Of a DNA stretch of 64,000 nt, positions 26,939-44,977 are shown piece by piece. The number at the start of each line of letters is the position of its first letter. The first letter of the stretch is position 1. The notes beneath the pieces are model-generated. The model made no database searches and was not told the DNA's origin. It saw nothing but the letters and a program-made list of their open reading frames with translations. The translations under genes and the position numbers were made by a program. The stretch is from Halomonas piscis (GTDB taxonomy: Bacteria > Pseudomonadota > Gammaproteobacteria > Pseudomonadales > Halomonadaceae), in NCBI RefSeq assembly GCF_031886125.1, contig NZ_CP119391.1:2418001-2482000 (forward strand). The letters are read 5' to 3'.

Positions 26939-27297
26939 TTGTCTACCGCTCACGCCTCGCGTCACGCGCCCTCTGCCGCCGCCCCGGTGAGCGGCTTTTT
27001 CGGCGTTTTCCGCTACAGCAGCCGGGCGCTTTTGCTGGTCTGGCAAACCTCGCGGCTGATGATGGTAGGGCTGGCGCTGGCCACCCTGGTCGCCGGGGTG
27101 TTGCCGGCGGTGGCCGCCTGGGTGGGCCAGCTGATCGTCGACGGCGTAGTGGCCGCCATGGAGGCCCAAGAAGCCAGCGCTGCCCCGCCGCTTGCCCAAA
27201 GTCTCACCCCGGTACTCTGGCTGGTGGCGCTGGAAGGCGCGATCATCGGCTTGATCGCGCTTGCCCAGCGCGGGCTCGACGCGCAGAAGTCGCTTCT
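26939..27297 (+). pseudogene. ABC transporter gene, 5' part (split by IS110-family element)
   Basis: First ~119 codons of an ABC exporter (fused membrane and ATPase domains) starting at a TTG. The first two membrane helices are visible (about 38-58 and 92-110), ending AQRGLDAQKSLL where the insertion element begins. No ATG lies near; the ribosome site is not evident, so the exact start is uncertain. Joined to 28862-30362 with one CT kept, the frame gives 619 codons without a stop, so the gene was intact before the insertion. The untruncated protein would export an unknown substrate. Confidence 0.85.
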
Positions 27298-27567
27298 GGT
27301 ATGGATTGACCCGTCAAGGGGTCGGTTGACTCTGCTACGTGTGATTGTCCTCAATGCCCACGGATCAGGAAGCGAGGGGCTATCAGCGACGGTGGATCTC
27401 TCTGGTATTCGTGGGTTGGTTACCGACCTGTCATCACTTCGTCGCGGAGCTACCCTGGTCTACGAGCGAGGGTCACCCCGCCCCGCAGGGCGGGGGCCTC
27501 ATAGGAGCGTCAGGGGTTCTCCCACCGGCCCGACGCTCCCTGAATCGTAGGCACTGAGGCGCGATCA
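27298..27567 (-). ncRNA. candidate bridge/seekRNA region of IS110-family copy 1
   Basis: This is the long non-coding end 3' of the transposase, where IS1111-group elements encode their guide RNA. Two strong hairpins are visible: an 8-bp stem with a 4-nt loop (27476-27495) and an 8-bp stem (27504-27511 with 27532-27539). TCTGGTAT at 27401-27408 is identical to the sequence made when the element ends join across CT. GAAGCGA at 27369-27375 is the reverse complement of TCGCTTC, the left flank of the ABC target; five of these seven bases are also in the hsdS target. RNA boundaries and transcription are inferred. Confidence 0.45.
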
Positions 27568-28770
27568 TCATGCGGTGGCCCGGCTGCCGTGCGGTTTGCC
27601 CATCGCTTCGCAGGCAATCGCCCACAGGAAGCCGGCCATTTCTCGCGCCACCGCCGTGGTGACTTGCTGCTTGGCCTTGCCCGTGGCAGCCAGGCGGCGG
27701 TAGCGCCCGCACAGTCGCTTCTGCGCCTCCCAGGCGATCGCCTGCACCGTTGGCGAGGTCTTCTCGGCGCGCTGCTCAATAATGCGCGTCTTGCGGGCCG
27801 GGAACCGGTAGCTCCAGGCCGCCTCCACCAGCACTCGTCGCACATGGCCATTGCCGGTCTTGGTGATGCCGCCCTGGCGCCGACTGCCCCCGCTCGAGTG
27901 CTCGCTGGGCACCAGGCCCAGGTAGGCCATCAGCTGGCGGGGCGAGTCGAAGCGACTGATGTCACCCAGCTCGGCCAGCACCGTCATCGCCGTGATCAGG
28001 CTCACGCCCCACATCGCCTGAACGGCCTCGACCACCGGAGCCAGTGACCAGTTTGGTAACACCGCTCTCATCTGTTTTTCGAGACCCGCCACACGGCGCT
28101 GGGCATCTTTCACGTTGTCGACGTACTCCTGCAACACAACCTGCTGAACCGGGGTGTCGAAGCGCACCGTCTCCAGCCAGCGGAAGTGTGCCGGTATCCA
28201 CTTGCTCTTGCCGGGGTAGATCTTGCTGTGCCGCAACAAGAAGGCGTTGAGTCGCTGTCGGGCGCGGAGCTCAGCGGCTTTCATGTCTTCCCGGGCACGC
28301 GTCAGATCGCGAATCGCCTCCTGTTCCGGCGTTGGCACCCAGACCGGTGTCAGCTCTCCTGAGCGCGACAGGCGAGCCAGCATCTTGGCATCGCGACGGT
28401 CGGTCTTGATGCGATCCCCTGCGCGCTGAGGAATCAGCGTCGGGGCAACGACCTCGCAATCATGGCCGCTGGCCTGAATCTGGTGATAGACCCCGTAGCC
28501 ACAGGGGCCAGCCTCGTAGCTGAATAACAACGGCTGCCCATCGAAACGCTGACTCAGCTGACGAACCAGCTTATCGATGGCCTGAGGCTCGTTCGGAATT
28601 TCGCCGCGGAACTCGGGAGCTTGGCGTCCGGCCTCGGCGATTGCCACGGAGATACTCGCCTTGTGCACGTCCAGGCCAATATAAGCGGCGTGGACGTTGC
28701 TGGCAGCACTAACCCGCTGGGCAACAGTGCGCTCGACAATAGCTGGCTGAGTTGCGTTAGACTGTTTCAT
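27568..28770 (-). CDS. IS110-family transposase (copy 1)
   Basis: 400-residue DEDD transposase of the IS110 family, which excises and inserts the element through a circular intermediate. The N-terminal RuvC-like domain has D34 (YIGLDVHKAS), E86 (FSYEAGPCG) and D124/D127 (KTDRRDAKML). The C-terminal Tnp_20 domain has MWGVSLITAMTVLAELGD and the serine-bearing HSSGGSRRQGGITKTGN near 291-307. GGGAGG precedes the ATG. The protein is identical to that at 40831-42033. It appears intact, so the element may be active. Confidence 0.93.
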   Translation of the reverse strand: MKQSNATQPAIVERTVAQRVSAASNVHAAYIGLDVHKASISVAIAEAGRQAPEFRGEIPNEPQAIDKLVRQLSQRFDGQPLLFSYEAGPCGYGVYHQIQASGHDCEVVAPTLIPQRAGDRIKTDRRDAKMLARLSRSGELTPVWVPTPEQEAIRDLTRAREDMKAAELRARQRLNAFLLRHSKIYPGKSKWIPAHFRWLETVRFDTPVQQVVLQEYVDNVKDAQRRVAGLEKQMRAVLPNWSLAPVVEAVQAMWGVSLITAMTVLAELGDISRFDSPRQLMAYLGLVPSEHSSGGSRRQGGITKTGNGHVRRVLVEAAWSYRFPARKTRIIEQRAEKTSPTVQAIAWEAQKRLCGRYRRLAATGKAKQQVTTAVAREMAGFLWAIACEAMGKPHGSRATA

Positions 28771-28861
28771 GACCTGCCTCCCTCAATAGTGGCTCTGTGT
28801 TGTTGCCCTACCTCAACATAACCCACGACGTTGAGGTGGGGCAGGTCAATCCATGATGTCT

Positions 28862-30362
28862 ACGCGCCCGGCTGGGCCATCGGGTCAACGTGATGATTCT
28901 GGAAAAGGCCGGCACGCTGTCCCTTGCCCAGTTCGAGGATTCCGAGCTTTACGACAAGCTCACCCGGGCCCGGCGCGAAGCCTCCACCCGGCCGCTGGGG
29001 CTGGTCAACAAGACGTTTTCGCTGTTGCAAAACGCCATTTCCCTGGGCAGCTTCGGCGTGCTTCTGGTGCAGTTTTCGCCCTGGGCGCTGCTGATTCTGG
29101 TGATCGGGGCTCTGCCGGTATTCCTCTCCGAGGCCAGGTTTTCCGGCGAAGCGTTTCGTCTGTTTCGCGGGCGCTCGCCCCAGTCGCGGATGCAGATGTA
29201 CCTGGAAACCGTGCTCGCCCGGGAAGACAGCATCAAGGAGGTCAAGCTCTTCGGCCTGGAAGAGCTCTTCCTCAAGCGCTACAAGGCCATCTTCAACCGC
29301 CTGTTTGCCGAGGAGCGCCGGCTCACCCTGCGCCGGGAAGGCTGGGGCTTTGCCCTGGGGCTGCTGGGTACGCTGACGTTCTACGCCGCCTACGGCTGGG
29401 TGGTGGTGGAAACCGTGGCCGGCGCGCTGACCCTGGGCCAGATGACGATGTACCTGATGGTGTTCAAGCAGGGCCAGAGCGCGCTTTCGGCAAGCCTCAC
29501 GGCGATCAGCGGCATGTACGAGGACAACCTGTATCTGTCCAACCTCTACGAGTACCTGGAGCAGCCGGTGGAGGAAGAAGCCGGCACCGCCACCCGGGGC
29601 GAAGCGCCCGGCGACGGCCTGCGCTTCGAGGGCGTGAGCTTCGCCTACCCCGGCGGCAAGGAAGTCCTCCACGACGTCTCGCTGCACCTGGTGCCCGGCC
29701 AGAGCCTGGCCCTGGTGGGGGAAAACGGCTCGGGCAAGACCACCCTGATCAAGCTCTTGACCCGGCTGTACTCACCCACTGCCGGGCGCATCCTGCTCGA
29801 CGGCACCGACCTTCGCCACTGGGACGCGGTGGCCCTGCGCGAGCGCATCGGCGTCATCTTTCAGGACTTCGTGCGCTACCAGCTGCCCGTGGGCGAGAAC
29901 CTGGGCGTGGGCGACACCCACGCCTTCGGCGATGAGAGCCGCTGGGAACACGCCGCCCGCCACGGCATGGCCAACGATTTTATTCGCGACATGCCCAAGG
30001 GCTATCACACCCAGCTGGGGCGCTGGTTCAAGAACGGCCAGGAGCTTTCCGGCGGCCAGTGGCAGAAAATCGCCCTCTCCCGGGCCTACATGCGCGAAAA
30101 CGCCGATATTCTGGTGCTCGACGAGCCCACCGCGGCCATGGACCCCGCCGCCGAGGCCGAGGTGTTCGCCCGCTTTCGCGAGCACAGCCGGGACAAGATG
30201 ACGATTCTGATCTCGCACCGCTTTTCCACGGTGCGAAGCGCCGAGCAGATACTGGTGGTGGACGCCGGGCGCATCATCGAGCGCGGCACCCACGCCGAGC
30301 TTCTGGCGCAAAACGGCCGCTACGCCGCGCTGTTCCGCCTCCAGGCCAGAGGCTACCAGTAG
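28862..30362 (+). pseudogene. ABC transporter gene, 3' part (membrane domain remainder plus ATPase)
   Basis: 3' remainder of the split ABC exporter. It resumes as ARLGHRVNVMILEKAGTL and contains the remaining membrane helices. The nucleotide-binding domain has Walker A GENGSGKTT, the signature LSGGQWQKIALSRAY, Walker B ILVLDEPTA and the H-loop ISHRFSTV. An ATG at 28890 could start a 490-residue fragment, but without the first two helices it is unlikely to work. Before the insertion it was continuous with 26939-27297. Confidence 0.88.
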
Positions 30363-38772: not shown

Positions 38773-38829
38773 TCACCTCGCCTGTGCCGATTGTTGAGCA
38801 AAGCAGTCGCGTTGGCCGACGGTGCTCAT
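38773..38829 (-). pseudogene. duplicated hsdR start (18-codon remnant)
   Basis: Immediately overlapping the hsdS stop codon is ATGAGCACCGTCGGCCAACG, which continues for 23 bases identical to the true hsdR start. The frame then diverges and stops after 18 codons, three bases before the rhuM/fic ATG. The hsdS stop and this ATG overlap as ATGA, the junction expected for the original hsdS-hsdR pair. The sequence is best read as a relic left by insertion of the rhuM/fic gene at the hsdR start. Confidence 0.75.
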
Positions 38830-39724
38830 GCGCTGGCCTCCCTTACGTTTTCTACCTCCGGCTCAACCAGTCGGACTCGCCCGGTAAGAAGCTGCTGCAT
38901 CATGCCCTGTTTGAGCTGACGGGCCTTGTAGCGGCGGTGTTCCAGGGCTTCGACTTCACTGTCCATATCAGAGAGGACGGTGGCGATGGCGGTTTGCTCT
39001 TTCTGGTCCGGAAAATGCACTTCAATCTGCGCTAGGTTGCGCGCGCTGATGTGCACAACGGCGTCCCCCTGGCCAACCCGGGCTTTCTGCTGGGCTATCG
39101 TGGGATGGTTAAGCAAACGACCCAAATAGGCGGAGGTGCCCCCGTTTGGGCGCAACACCACGATATCCCCGCCAGCGAATGCCGGTTGCTCGCCCAGGTA
39201 GGCAACACACATACCGATTTCTTCCGCCGTTTCTCCCGATCCTGCAAATAGGATATCTCCACTTCGCAATGGAAATGCAGATTCGGACAAATGCTCAGGA
39301 ATACTTGATTCAGGGGCTACGACGCAATCGCCATACCGCGTGTAAATCTCGCCGTATCGAATGCAGGGAACACCTTCATCGCTGACATCATCCCGCCGAA
39401 TACCTTGTCCCTTATAAAAAGTGCCGATCTCCCCCAACCGCTTTGTCTCCCACTCGCCGGTAAAGCCCGGCAGGCGGGTCTGGCCGGTGAGGAGTTGTTG
39501 CATGGCGGCCTGTTTGATGGCGCGCTTTTTGGCGATCAGACGGTCGAGGGATTCGATCAACGCGTCCGCGTCAGACAGGGCGGTGGCGATGGCGCGTTGT
39601 TCGCCTACTTCGGGCAGCGGCACTCGGATTCGCGCCATAACCCCATTCATGAGCTTTGGGTTCGCTAGATTCCTCGATACGTGGCTTGGCGCAAACTTTG
39701 CGAGAATAAGCGATAGAAACCTAG
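38826..39724 (-). pseudogene. hsdS: hsdS, 3' part (central conserved region and second target-recognition domain)
   Basis: C-terminal ~300 codons of the DNA-specificity subunit. It begins RFLSLILAKFAPSHVSRNLA, then has the central spacer LMNGVMARIRVPLPEVGEQ and the coiled coil ALIESLDRLIAKKRAIKQA. The second recognition domain and the final repeat QMM-type LKQGMMQQLLTGRVRL follow. With 42125-42537, after removing both insertions, the reading frame is 438 codons without a stop. A TTG at 39737 inside the IS5-like end could start a half-subunit fragment. GC content is lower than in core genes, as is usual for recognition domains. Confidence 0.88.
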
Positions 39725-40551
39725 GGTGTGTTAACAATCATTAGTTTCGTTTAAACTGATTTAGTATTCATAGATTTTGGTGGGCCATGAGTCGGTTGAA
39801 GTTACGCGATGATCAGTGGGAGCGAATCGAGCACCTGCTCCCCGGCAAAGCCTCAGACTGTGGGGTAACTGCCAAGGACAATCGCCTGTTCGTGGAAGCC
39901 GTGCTCTGGATCGCTCGGACCGGCGCCCCGTGGCGTGATCTTCCCGAATCTTTTGGGCGCTGGCACACCGTCTACATGCGGTATAACCGTTGGTCACGAA
40001 AGGGCGTTTGGCAGCGTATTTTTGACACAGTAGCCGACGATCCCGATCTAGAGCAGCTAATGATCGACGGTAGCATCGTCAGGGTGCACCAGCATGGAGC
40101 GTCAAAAAAAACACGCAAGACGTCGAAGCCATGGGCAAATCTCGAGGCGGATTGAGCACCAAAATTCATGCCGCAGTCGATGCGTTAGGTAACCCAGTAC
40201 GATTGGTTCTCACACCGGGCCAGGCGTCGGAGTATGGTGCTGCTCCCGCTCTACTGGAAGGTTTTTCCCCGCAAGCAGTGCTGGGCGACAAGGGGTATGA
40301 CTCCACTGCTCTGCGGGACATGATTCAGGCCGCAGGTGCCGAGCCGGTGATTCCTCCGAAAAAGAATCGTTTGGCGCGCATTGAAGTAGACTGGCACTGT
40401 TACCAAGATCGCAATCTGGTGGAGAGGTTCTTTCAGAAAATCAAGAAGTTCCGGCGGTTATCTACACGCTATGAGCGACTGGCAAGAAACTACCAGTCAC
40501 TCCTCTGCCTCGTGTCAGCCGCCATATGGCTGGCCTAATTGTTAACGCCCC
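39725..40551 (+). mobile_element. IS5-family element inserted in hsdS
   Basis: About 827-bp element with imperfect terminal inverted repeats (GGTGTGTTAACAAT at the left, complement GGGGCGTTAACAAT at the right). It is flanked by CTAG on both sides (39721-39724 and 40552-40555), consistent with the 2-4-bp target duplications of the family; the end could be one base further out. It encodes a transposase in two overlapping frames on the plus strand. The IS110-family copy lies only five bases beyond the right-hand CTAG. Confidence 0.88.
39787..40538 (+). CDS. IS5-family transposase, two frames joined by -1 frameshift
   Basis: DDE transposase encoded in two overlapping frames (39787-40155 and 40131-40538). 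A run of eight A at 40104-40111 offers a -1 slip that would read NTQDVEAMGKSRGGLSTKIH, the expected continuous family sequence. The first part carries the first catalytic aspartate (LMIDGSIVRVH). The second carries LGDKGYDS and the glutamate in LVERFFQKIKKFRRL. Two-frame organisation with a slippery A-run is common in this family and is not taken as damage. Confidence 0.88.
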
Positions 40552-40560
40552 CTAGCTTCT

Positions 40561-40830
40561 GGTATGGATTGACCCGTCAAGGGGTCGGTTGACTCTGCTA
40601 CGTGTGATTGTCCTCAATGCCCACGGATCAGGAAGCGAGGGGCTATCAGCGACGGTGGATCTCTCTGGTATTCGTGGGTTGGTTACCGACCTGTCATCAC
40701 TTCGTCGCGGAGCTACCCTGGTCTACGAGCGAGGGTCACCCCGCCCCGCAGGGCGGGGGCCTCATAGGAGCGTCAGGGGTTCTCCCACCGGCCCGACGCT
40801 CCCTGAATCGTAGGCACTGAGGCGCGATCA
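40561..40830 (-). ncRNA. candidate bridge/seekRNA region of IS110-family copy 2
   Basis: Same sequence as the candidate in copy 1. Hairpins are at 40739-40758 and 40767-40802, the joined-end match TCTGGTAT at 40664-40671 and the target-like GAAGCGA at 40632-40638. RNA ends and expression are not visible from sequence. Confidence 0.45.
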
Positions 40831-42033
40831 TCATGCGGTGGCCCGGCTGCCGTGCGGTTTGCCCATCGCTTCGCAGGCAATCGCCCACAGGAAGCCGGCC
40901 ATTTCTCGCGCCACCGCCGTGGTGACTTGCTGCTTGGCCTTGCCCGTGGCAGCCAGGCGGCGGTAGCGCCCGCACAGTCGCTTCTGCGCCTCCCAGGCGA
41001 TCGCCTGCACCGTTGGCGAGGTCTTCTCGGCGCGCTGCTCAATAATGCGCGTCTTGCGGGCCGGGAACCGGTAGCTCCAGGCCGCCTCCACCAGCACTCG
41101 TCGCACATGGCCATTGCCGGTCTTGGTGATGCCGCCCTGGCGCCGACTGCCCCCGCTCGAGTGCTCGCTGGGCACCAGGCCCAGGTAGGCCATCAGCTGG
41201 CGGGGCGAGTCGAAGCGACTGATGTCACCCAGCTCGGCCAGCACCGTCATCGCCGTGATCAGGCTCACGCCCCACATCGCCTGAACGGCCTCGACCACCG
41301 GAGCCAGTGACCAGTTTGGTAACACCGCTCTCATCTGTTTTTCGAGACCCGCCACACGGCGCTGGGCATCTTTCACGTTGTCGACGTACTCCTGCAACAC
41401 AACCTGCTGAACCGGGGTGTCGAAGCGCACCGTCTCCAGCCAGCGGAAGTGTGCCGGTATCCACTTGCTCTTGCCGGGGTAGATCTTGCTGTGCCGCAAC
41501 AAGAAGGCGTTGAGTCGCTGTCGGGCGCGGAGCTCAGCGGCTTTCATGTCTTCCCGGGCACGCGTCAGATCGCGAATCGCCTCCTGTTCCGGCGTTGGCA
41601 CCCAGACCGGTGTCAGCTCTCCTGAGCGCGACAGGCGAGCCAGCATCTTGGCATCGCGACGGTCGGTCTTGATGCGATCCCCTGCGCGCTGAGGAATCAG
41701 CGTCGGGGCAACGACCTCGCAATCATGGCCGCTGGCCTGAATCTGGTGATAGACCCCGTAGCCACAGGGGCCAGCCTCGTAGCTGAATAACAACGGCTGC
41801 CCATCGAAACGCTGACTCAGCTGACGAACCAGCTTATCGATGGCCTGAGGCTCGTTCGGAATTTCGCCGCGGAACTCGGGAGCTTGGCGTCCGGCCTCGG
41901 CGATTGCCACGGAGATACTCGCCTTGTGCACGTCCAGGCCAATATAAGCGGCGTGGACGTTGCTGGCAGCACTAACCCGCTGGGCAACAGTGCGCTCGAC
42001 AATAGCTGGCTGAGTTGCGTTAGACTGTTTCAT
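40831..42033 (-). CDS. IS110-family transposase (copy 2)
   Basis: 400-residue transposase identical in translation to that at 27568-28770, with the same DEDD residues and the C-terminal serine motif. It is intact and has the same GGGAGG ribosome site. Its leader contains an 8-bp inverted repeat, ACCTCAAC with GTTGAGGT (42073-42080 and 42093-42100). Confidence 0.93.
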   Translation of the reverse strand: MKQSNATQPAIVERTVAQRVSAASNVHAAYIGLDVHKASISVAIAEAGRQAPEFRGEIPNEPQAIDKLVRQLSQRFDGQPLLFSYEAGPCGYGVYHQIQASGHDCEVVAPTLIPQRAGDRIKTDRRDAKMLARLSRSGELTPVWVPTPEQEAIRDLTRAREDMKAAELRARQRLNAFLLRHSKIYPGKSKWIPAHFRWLETVRFDTPVQQVVLQEYVDNVKDAQRRVAGLEKQMRAVLPNWSLAPVVEAVQAMWGVSLITAMTVLAELGDISRFDSPRQLMAYLGLVPSEHSSGGSRRQGGITKTGNGHVRRVLVEAAWSYRFPARKTRIIEQRAEKTSPTVQAIAWEAQKRLCGRYRRLAATGKAKQQVTTAVAREMAGFLWAIACEAMGKPHGSRATA

Positions 42034-42124
42034 GACCTGCCTCCCTCAATAGTGGCTCTGTGTTGTTGCCCTACCTCAACATAACCCACGACGTTGAGGT
42101 GGGGCAGGTCAATCCATGATGTCT

Positions 42125-42537
42125 ATTCCTTCCTTTATCTTGAGCGTCCCACAGACGTTAGTGCAGTTAAATCGACCTGTTCTGTGGAATACTCGCCCAG
42201 CATTAACGCCATCTGTAGTCCATGTAACGTACTCTCCGTCAAAATCATATGAATCGATATATCCCATCAATCCTTCGTTACTGGTCTGGGAAGAAAACAC
42301 GGGATATTGCTGATTGATAGACCGTCTAATTTCGTTGTGGCTGATAACGCGCCCTCGGCCCAGCATCGCCAACTGATCGATCTTTTGGATTCGCCAATCC
42401 CTTGGAATAACCCCCACTTCGGTCCGCTTGTACCCAAGCGGCACACCCTCTGCAGTCGCGATGCATACTCTTGCCGAATAGGTGGGCGATGTATCCCGCA
42501 CCGTTTCCTCTTTCAATATCGAACCCTGCTCAGCCAT
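42125..42537 (-). pseudogene. hsdS: hsdS, 5' part (first target-recognition domain)
   Basis: First ~137 codons of the specificity subunit, ending where the IS110-family element begins. It contains PLGYKRTEVGVIPRDWRI, the usual start of a recognition domain, and TNVCGTLKIKEG near the break. The ATG at 42537 overlaps the hsdM stop by 8 bases, showing coupled translation. The local GC content is low. Joined across both elements it continues KIKEGIEARFLSLILAKF. Confidence 0.88.
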
Positions 42538-44977
42538 CGACCCGCACCCCCATCTTTTGCAGGTGGCCGGAAACCTTGGCGGCCAGTACTTCCACCTCGC
42601 GCTCGATACTCGGCAGGGGGTCGGCGTAGCGTTCCTCCAGCTCGCGCACGCGGCCGGCGAGCTGGTTGGTGATACGCTCGACTTCGGATTCGATGACGGC
42701 GCGGATGTCGGCCAGCCACTTGTCGTCCACAGCGAGCTGCTTGACCTCGTCCTCGGTGAGTGCCTCGTAGCGATTCAGCACGGCCTGATCAAGTTTGGTC
42801 TGGGCGTCCTTGACGGCTTTTTTGGCGCTGGCTTCGGCGTCCATCCGCTTTTTGCACTGCTTGAGCGCGGCGGTTTCCTCGTCGCTTTCCGGCTCACCCT
42901 TGAGGGCCTTGAGGCGTTTGGGAATTTCACCCTTGGTGACCTTGCCCTTGTCGTTTTTCACCTCGCTCAAGAGGTCTTCCTCGCCGTCGTGTTCTTCGAT
43001 GAACTCCTCCAGCTCACGGGTGGCGGTTTCCAGCTCGGCCTGCAGGGCATCAAGGCGGGTCTGATCGTCAGCGAAATAGCGCGCAATGACCAGTGCCGGC
43101 GGGATGAGGTCGAGCTTGTATCGCTTCGCCTGTCGGCCGCGGCCAATGGTGAGGTCGGGCTCTTCCCTGATCTTGCGTTCCTTGTCCTGAATCACGCCGC
43201 GGGGACGGGCCGCCTCTTGCCAGCCTTCGACAGCGACCAGGTGAACATCGTCCTGCATGACATCGGCCCAGTAGTCCATCAGACGCTGGTAGACGGCGTA
43301 GCGATCCAGCAGGGGCACGTCGGCAAAGCGGTGGAGCAGATCCTCGGACAAGGCGTGGATCACATCCCGGGGCTTGATGCCTGCTTGCAAGCCATGCAGG
43401 GCCCGTTGATGGGCCGCCTGCCAGCTGTCGATCACGCCGCCGATCCGCCCGGCAAACGCCCGGAAAGCGGGATGGGCCAGCACGGTGGACTTGACCTCTG
43501 CGGTTTTGACGTTTGCCGTCAGGTAGCCAGGCCGGCCGTTGTCACGGAACAGCGCCTCGCGCAGGCCGGGCAGCTCGGCCCAGTAGGCATCGAGCGCGTC
43601 CACGTCGCGCTGCGGAATGCCGCCGTTCAGGTGGGCATAGAGGTCGTGCTGGTCCTCGGCTTCGGCGCTGTCGATGTAGCGCGGGATGTTGAGGTTATAG
43701 TCGTTGGCTTCACTGGCGATTTCATCCAACGGCACGCGCCGAGCGTAGCCGGGCAGCTCGCGCTGGTAATTGAACACATCGACAATCTTGTGGATGTCGC
43801 GGGAGCGCAGGCGGTTCTTGTTGCCGTCCTTGATGAACTCACGACTGGCGTCGACCATAAAGATGTGCTCGCGCTGCGCCGCGTCTTTTTTGTCGATCAC
43901 CAGAATGCAGGCCGGGATGCCGGTGCCGTAGAACAGGTTAGCCGGAAGGCCAATAATGCCCTTGATCAGCCCGCGCTGGATCAGGTTACGGCGGATATCG
44001 GCCTCCTTGTGGCCACGAAACAGTACGCCGTGGGGCAGGATAATGGCGCCGCGGCCGTCAGATTTGAGCGACTTGATCAAGTGCAGCAGAAAGGCGTAGT
44101 CGCCGTTCTTGGTCGGCGGGATGCCGTATTCGAAGCGGTTGAATTCGTCATTCTCCGGGTTCAGGCCGTTGGTCCAGGATTTGACGGAAAACGGCGGATT
44201 GGCCACCGCGTAGTCAAAGGTTTTGAGGCTGCCATCGGCGTTTTTGAAATACGGGCGCGACAGCGTGTTGTCCCGCCACAGCTCGGCGGTGGGATAGTCG
44301 TGCAGGATCATGTTCATCCGCGCCAGCGCCCAGGTGGCGTTATCGTTCTCTTGGCCGTAGAGGCTCATGCCCTGCGGGGCCTCGTAAGCGGCGCGCAGCA
44401 GCAAGGACCCCGAGCCGCTGGTGGGGTCGTAGATCGTTTCGTCCTGACGCGTTTCCGGGCCGATACCCACCACCTGAGCGATGACCCGCGAGACTTCGCC
44501 CGGGGTATAGAATTGCCCCTTGCTCTTGCCCGACTCGGTGGCGAAGTGGCGCATCAGATATTCGTAGGCATCCCCCAGCAGGTCGTCGCCGTCGGCTCGG
44601 TTGGCGCCCAGATCCAGCTGATCGAAGATGGCCACCAGCTTTGAGAGCCGATCCTGCATGTCCTTGCCGGAGCCGAGCTTGGTCTCGTCGTTAAAGTCCG
44701 CCTGGTCGATCACGCCTTTCAGATCATTTTCTTCCGCCAGCCGGCCGATGATCTTATTGATGCCGTCGCCGATCTCTTTATCGCCCTTGAGCGCGACCAT
44801 ATCAGCGAAGCTACCGCCTTCCGGCACCTCAATCAGCGAGTCCTTCTTATCGCTGACGTACTTCATGAACAGCAGCGTCAGGACGTAGTCCTTGTACTGC
44901 GAAGCGTCCATTCCGCCACGCAGCTCGTCGCAGGACTGCCAAAGGGAGCTGTAGAGCTGGGATTTCTTGAGTGCCAT
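42530..44977 (-). CDS. hsdM: type I restriction enzyme, methyltransferase subunit HsdM
   Basis: N6-adenine methyltransferase subunit, first gene of the restriction operon. In the 815-residue protein the S-adenosylmethionine motif DPTSGSGSLLL is at 184-194 and the catalytic NPPF at 260-263, with an N-terminal helical domain (1-135). It is longer than most HsdM proteins (500-700), the surplus being a coiled-coil-rich C-terminal region (about 640-815). The promoter should lie in the 100 bp between its ATG and the IS4-family element. Confidence 0.94.
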   Translation of the reverse strand: MALKKSQLYSSLWQSCDELRGGMDASQYKDYVLTLLFMKYVSDKKDSLIEVPEGGSFADMVALKGDKEIGDGINKIIGRLAEENDLKGVIDQADFNDETKLGSGKDMQDRLSKLVAIFDQLDLGANRADGDDLLGDAYEYLMRHFATESGKSKGQFYTPGEVSRVIAQVVGIGPETRQDETIYDPTSGSGSLLLRAAYEAPQGMSLYGQENDNATWALARMNMILHDYPTAELWRDNTLSRPYFKNADGSLKTFDYAVANPPFSVKSWTNGLNPENDEFNRFEYGIPPTKNGDYAFLLHLIKSLKSDGRGAIILPHGVLFRGHKEADIRRNLIQRGLIKGIIGLPANLFYGTGIPACILVIDKKDAAQREHIFMVDASREFIKDGNKNRLRSRDIHKIVDVFNYQRELPGYARRVPLDEIASEANDYNLNIPRYIDSAEAEDQHDLYAHLNGGIPQRDVDALDAYWAELPGLREALFRDNGRPGYLTANVKTAEVKSTVLAHPAFRAFAGRIGGVIDSWQAAHQRALHGLQAGIKPRDVIHALSEDLLHRFADVPLLDRYAVYQRLMDYWADVMQDDVHLVAVEGWQEAARPRGVIQDKERKIREEPDLTIGRGRQAKRYKLDLIPPALVIARYFADDQTRLDALQAELETATRELEEFIEEHDGEEDLLSEVKNDKGKVTKGEIPKRLKALKGEPESDEETAALKQCKKRMDAEASAKKAVKDAQTKLDQAVLNRYEALTEDEVKQLAVDDKWLADIRAVIESEVERITNQLAGRVRELEERYADPLPSIEREVEVLAAKVSGHLQKMGVRVDG

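Follow-up and report, generated by a model that had tools for sequence, protein, structure and literature searches.

A probable guide RNA of the seekRNA/bridge-RNA kind in the 3' non-coding end of an IS1111-type element of Halomonas piscis

Movement of IS1111-family elements requires a seekRNA, which co-purifies with the transposase. RNA-guided mechanisms of this kind have been known from IS1111 and IS110 elements since 2024, and the element described here is a well-supported further example, one that comes with many relatives re-aimed in nature. According to passages of PMC11187229, an 82-nt seekRNA is enough for movement of ISEc11, IS1111 elements carry 7-bp and 3-bp extensions outside their inverted repeats, and targeting of REP sequences is known for ISPa11 and IS621. 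Our element resembles the IS1111-family seekRNA elements treated in those passages (ISEc11, ISKpn4 and ISPa11) in its subterminal inverted repeats (11 bp, within the family range of 11-13 bp), in the 7-bp and 3-bp extensions seen in its own copies, in the long non-coding region 3' of the transposase gene, in the position of the top-strand-pairing segment 5' of the bottom-strand-pairing segment, and in the natural re-aiming between relatives. It differs from the IS110-group bridge RNA elements IS621 and ISCro4, as presented in passages of PMC11208160, in that its RNA lies 3' of the gene and not upstream in the left end, the strand-pairing segments come in the opposite order (with the top strand, not the bottom one, pairing with the 5' side of the target loop), the inverted repeats are long, and one donor segment was found. 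Whereas the donor loop of IS621-type bridge RNAs holds guides for both sides, in our RNA one side is supported and the other was not found.

The window, that is, the whole stretch of 64,000 nucleotides that was analysed, contains the element at 27298-28861 (1,564 bp as defined by copies, flanks and the 7/3 rule), and the element and all parts of it described below lie on the minus strand. The original prediction had set the boundaries at 27298-28859, with which the element's other copies in the genome agree; under the IS1111 7/3 rule the left extension takes in the core as well (CT/AG at 28860-28861). The genome holds seven full-length copies at 100% (rounded) identity and an eighth copy in two parts; a relative at 79% occurs there three times. 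One further identical copy lies within the window at 40561-42124, also on the minus strand, with its core CT at 42123-42124. The closest named relatives of the element are Halomonas-group records. Read in transposase sense, the 11-bp subterminal inverted repeats occupy 28844-28854 (left, ATGGATTGACC) and 27301-27311 (right, GGTCAATCCAT), and are followed outwards by the left extension AGACATC (28855-28861, 7 bp including the core AG) and the right extension ACC (27298-27300, 3 bp). At the eight sites in this genome the left flank ends in T-AG, and the right flank starts with AG-(G/A)(A/T/G)G(C/A), the last position being C in seven. Because the eight sites share these flanks, we take AG (CT on the plus strand) as the shared core and a T-AG-RRGC-like sequence as the target.

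The surroundings of the copies are varied. The element at 27298-28861 interrupts an ABC-transporter-like gene (26939-27309 and 28890-30362). The L001 copy lies within a roughly 55-bp tandem repeat (GTAGGAGCGCAATTTATTGTGCGCTTC...GCTTGAGCCAACTGCCTG), just upstream of the start of an ORF resembling another IS110-type transposase. Around the second copy in the window (38826-44977) there are two ORFs resembling an IS5-type transposase (39787-40538) and ORFs that by eye resemble a fragmented type I restriction specificity subunit (42109-42537 and 38826-39737) and a methylase (42530-44977). The eighth copy (G000:C1:1230055-1232823; L008 and L012) is split by roughly 1.2 kb of DNA that does not belong to the element; the same 10 bp of the element flank this DNA on either side, a pattern that the insertion of another element would leave.

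The transposase gene (27568-28770) encodes a DEDD-type protein of 400 aa and is bordered by 270 bp of non-coding DNA downstream and 91 bp, core included, upstream. The protein carries domains PF02371 and PF01548 and scores 274.8 bits against NF033542 (cut-off 140). Among IS1111-type rows D34, E86, D124, D127 and G294 are invariant and S293 is S or T, and in the structure model the recombinase fold is closest to ISCro4 and IS621. By its residues, domains, SG motif and recombinase fold, the transposase is a member of the IS110/IS1111 DEDD superfamily. Within it the anatomy of the element is IS1111-type, and its transposase is placed in a distinct ISEc45/ISSfr2-like clade. In a tree of 28 rows, six of them from the IS1111 cluster, the transposase fell in a 17-row clade with support of 100/100, the deeper forks being weak and long-branched. 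The same clade (support 100/100) includes ISEc45 (49% identity) and ISSfr2 (56%), names that we took from plasmid annotation; identity to IS4321 is 25% over 309 aa. Compared with the IS1111 cluster, sampled here without ISEc11, ISKpn4 and ISPa11 themselves, the transposase is longer and has extra residues near the C-terminus, and it appears to fall outside that cluster. Two ISSfr2-like elements (L049 and L136) differ from ours in their sTIR sequence.

We modelled the guide RNA as a predicted transcript of 184 nt at 27363-27546, from 19 distinct relatives aligned across this interval with MAFFT and analysed with RNAalifold and pair counts. A single fold emerged, consisting of a closing stem P1 (5' strand CAGGGAGCG at 27534-27542, 3' strand CGCTTCCTG at 27366-27374), a target arm in which a variable hairpin caps an internal loop, and a donor arm. 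In the MAFFT alignment of these 19 close sequences 95.5% of the pairs formed, and 14 of 46 had changed on both sides. An alignment of 46 clade sequences by covariance model, which is fitted to the structure so that its pair counts lean towards it, gave 91.9% of cells paired and two-sided changes at 33 of 46 pairs (as high in 0 of 500 shuffles), against 37-45% when the partners were slid by 1-3 columns. In the outer P1 helix, each of the nine pairs has changed on both sides among relatives, and the inner donor-arm helices were the weakest part of the fold (helix 8, 73% paired; helix 9, 54%). The folding energy of the element's own RNA was -78.3 kcal/mol, compared with -69.1 +/- 4.6 in 200 shuffles (z -2.0); covariation supports the fold much better than folding energy does. 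A search of 27000-29200 against Rfam gave no match at E-values up to 1.

Two segments that are unpaired in the predicted fold, on opposite sides of the target loop, correspond to the insertion site. The right target guide, CGCTCCTA (27502-27509), is complementary to T-AG-GAGCG on the top strand, core included, and the left target guide, CTCGTAG (27460-27466), has the sense of the left flank plus core and would pair with the bottom strand. We compared these segments with the flanks of 19 elements, drawn from 33 right ends after leaving out four without a recognisable guide region (L120, L128, L129 and L130) and the misaligned L103; the eight own sites counted as one element by their mean, and L011 was merged with L009 and L134 with L110. 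The right guide matched at 0.90 over positions +1 to +4, compared with 0.42 after shuffling, and none of 20,000 shuffles reached this value. For 18 guides of the wider clade, which formed a second set, the match was 0.79 compared with 0.49 at +1 to +5, again reached in none of 20,000; this set was not blind, since matches in more distant elements had been listed beforehand, and it retained L069 even though that sequence is out of register by one. For the left guide the observed match was reached in 19 of 20,000 shuffles (15 elements with a left flank) and, in the second set, in 40 of 20,000, the pattern used having picked out a left guide in 16 of the 18. None of the shuffling tests takes kinship into account, a limitation that weighs most on the donor side.

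The guide positions had first been spotted by eye on the alignment, and full scans of all windows against all flank positions, with the best-fitting site (L001) representing our own element, served as a safeguard. In the first scan the right guide ranked first among 4,676 windows (z 8.5), and the left guide came next with z 4.17, barely above the following window (3.94). When 45 elements were scanned, each guide ranked first for its own flank, at z 12.5 (right) and 7.85 (left), and the next separate windows reached 4.3 and 4.0. The match was concentrated at +1 to +4 and at -1 and -2; over the own sites, 26 of 32 positions agreed at +1 to +4. The covariation of both target guides with the flanks is thereby established at the level of sequence comparison, as are the ends, the sites and the conserved fold.

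Individual relatives illustrate how the loops follow the sites. L042 has a right flank AG-AACC and RNA GGTTCTA, and on the left CGA-AG and CGAAG; L026 combines AG-TTGT with GCAACTA and CCT-AG with CCTAG; in L088 the flank AG-TGTC meets GACACTA. L103, with RNA GGCCGGGCTA and flank AG-CCCG, fits at +1 to +4, and so does L155. Some elements with mapped ends are misfits on the right flank, with agreement at 0 of 4 positions in L186 and L188, 1 of 4 in L138 and 2 of 4 in L065. In two Bacillaceae elements, L068 and L069, the 10-nt segments AAATGTACTT and AATTGTACTT are each complementary to the element's own site, and they differ in step with the sites.

A strong fold with a GC-rich hairpin right after the gene would also be expected of a regulatory RNA, such as a terminator, an attenuator or an antisense control of the transposase, with the protein alone picking the target. 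A regulatory hairpin, however, predicts no link between loop bases and flanks, and we found such covariation in two element sets and in the full scans. Relatives whose RNAs are near identical outside the loops, moreover, differ in their sites and their loops together, making a purely regulatory role very improbable. We therefore favour the proposal, made in the original prediction and supported by the conserved fold and the loop covariation, that the 3' non-coding end of the element encodes a guide RNA of the seekRNA/bridge-RNA kind, which would act through target and donor loops; we give this reading a probability of about 0.92.

The segments that the original prediction had named as guides fared differently. 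Both matches are present in the sequence, at 27401-27408 and 27369-27375, but only the first, the donor match, agrees with the variation among relatives. The second, TCGCTTC in RNA sense, is a full 7-nt complement of the right flank of the copy at 27298-28861 and had been taken for the target-binding loop. The covariance analysis, which the prediction had suggested as a check, confirmed a conserved structure but not this placement: six of the seven bases belong to the 3' strand of P1, where they take part in compensatory changes, and there is no covariation between the segment and the right flank (z no higher than 1.26). Of the eight sites in the genome only one matches the segment in full, and the segment is nearly unchanged among relatives while their targets differ. 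Because the segment falls in a stem and does not covary, the grounds for refutation that the prediction itself had laid down, we reject it as a target guide, and there is next to no chance that it is one. To gauge chance matches, the end without its last 24 nt was dinucleotide-shuffled 10,000 times; a 7-mer of the 12-nt flank occurred in 1,225 shuffles (12%), which makes the 7-nt match weak on its own. An 8-mer holding the whole junction core on either strand occurred in 346 of the 10,000, in line with the caution attached to the donor match that chance was not negligible, and it too is weak alone. A plausible but false guide assignment is thus corrected, and a flank match in a single copy proves to be poor evidence.

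The donor match at 27401-27408 reads TCTGGTAT as written and ATACCAGA in RNA sense, which equals the circle-junction sequence RE-AG-LE and has the sense of the right end plus core. Among 45 elements the RNA trinucleotide agreed with that of the right end in five variants: ACC (14 elements), ATC (10), and ACG, ATG and ACT (one each), the last three being single elements in other branches. A mismatch was retained in elements with GAG, which have CAG (12), and in one AAG element, also with CAG. Five of the 45 rows showed a partial match or none, the reason in at least four (L046, L082, L089 and L199) being that the pattern had caught another place, out of register; these rows were kept, and L155 was missed by the pattern used in this count. 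Overall the match was 0.807, compared with 0.405 after shuffling (0 of 20,000), with right ends that follow clades. For that reason the donor scan did not single out this segment, and other segments with a far lower match reached a similar z. A donor guide for the left end was looked for in the 45-element scan and not found. We regard 27401-27408 as the best candidate and a likely donor guide.

These results bear on how the ends are recognised. If only a short, seekRNA-like target arm were used, the donor arm would be structural and the protein would recognise the ends through the inverted repeats. The 82-nt seekRNA that sufficed for ISEc11 (PMC11187229), the missing left-end guide and the indistinct donor scan all speak for this, but the donor segment agrees with five right-end variants, including three in separate branches, and we consider the short-arm reading unlikely. 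A further possibility, to which we give a low probability, is that the ISEc45/ISSfr2-like clade forms a separate lineage alongside the IS1111 and IS110 groups. Such a lineage would have an RNA fold of its own and a one-sided donor guide, in which the RNA would read the right end plus core and the inverted repeats and protein would handle the left end. If true, this would be a mixed mode of end recognition, for which the passages of PMC11187229 and PMC11208160 hold no description.

Returning to the guide RNA with both a target and a donor arm, movement may proceed as follows. By analogy with described families, the element would be excised as a circle, whose joined ends would form a putative promoter, TTGACG-17 nt-CATCAT, from the -35-like TTGACG in the right end (27312-27317) and the -10-like CATCAT in the left end (28853-28858). 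Junction promoters are described for IS1111 and IS110 groups in passages of PMC11187229 and PMC11208160. The joined ends give TTGA(C/T)(A/G)-17 nt-CATNAT in the 11 close elements listed, which do not include L040, whose left end AGACACG would not give CATNAT; among the 21 more distant rows listed the same pair at 17 nt appears only in L070. The promoter is thus supported, but more weakly than the ends, sites, fold and target guides. Transcription of the circle would yield the transposase message and the RNA at 27363-27546, which the DEDD recombinase would bind. In the target arm, CGCTCCTA would pair with the top strand across and to the right of the AG core and CTCGTAG with the bottom strand to the left of and across it, and the two pairings would together select T-AG-RRGC-like sites. 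In the donor arm, ATACCAGA would pair with the right end of the element plus core. Strand exchange at the shared AG would then insert the circle without target duplication. Excision, transcription, RNA binding and guided recombination are all modelled here on the described families.

We searched 55 fetched loci plus the window with RNA model R1, which at E-values up to 0.001 found 39 of 45 loci of the transposase clade and none of 10 others, clade membership being assigned for most loci by protein similarity. The clade loci without a match at this threshold were L053, L084, L101, L104, L140 and L152; L140 is the ISEc45 locus, and the ISSfr2 locus (L141) was found. R1 gave no match in six IS1111-cluster loci, a miss that does not show their RNAs to be unrelated. 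Of 369 genomes sampled from the class, 17 contain the RNA according to this model, our own among them. No paper linking bridge RNAs with Halomonas was found, and the clade may already be among the supplementary predictions of PMC11208160.

Guide positions can now be given for a transposase clade whose members occur in many Proteobacteria and extend to Bacillota. The dozens of guide-target pairs that it offers in nature, re-aimed through a few loop bases, provide a test set for the pairing rules, that is, which positions count and which mismatches pass. The clade may also be a source of further programmable recombinases.

In one genome a pair of RNA matches separated by 110 bp was considered as a dual-guide element and rejected as a partial tandem duplication with the same guide. 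This duplication, at L186:2027-2517 (genome G631), affects one copy, whose guide does not fit its site. A REP-like repeat, TGTGGGAGGCCGGTTTACCGGGCGA, is the insertion site of the sister elements L009 and L010, and its consensus has 26 matches with up to 3 mismatches in our genome, two of them being the element junctions themselves; many copies of this repeat are clustered between 1.14 and 1.32 Mb.
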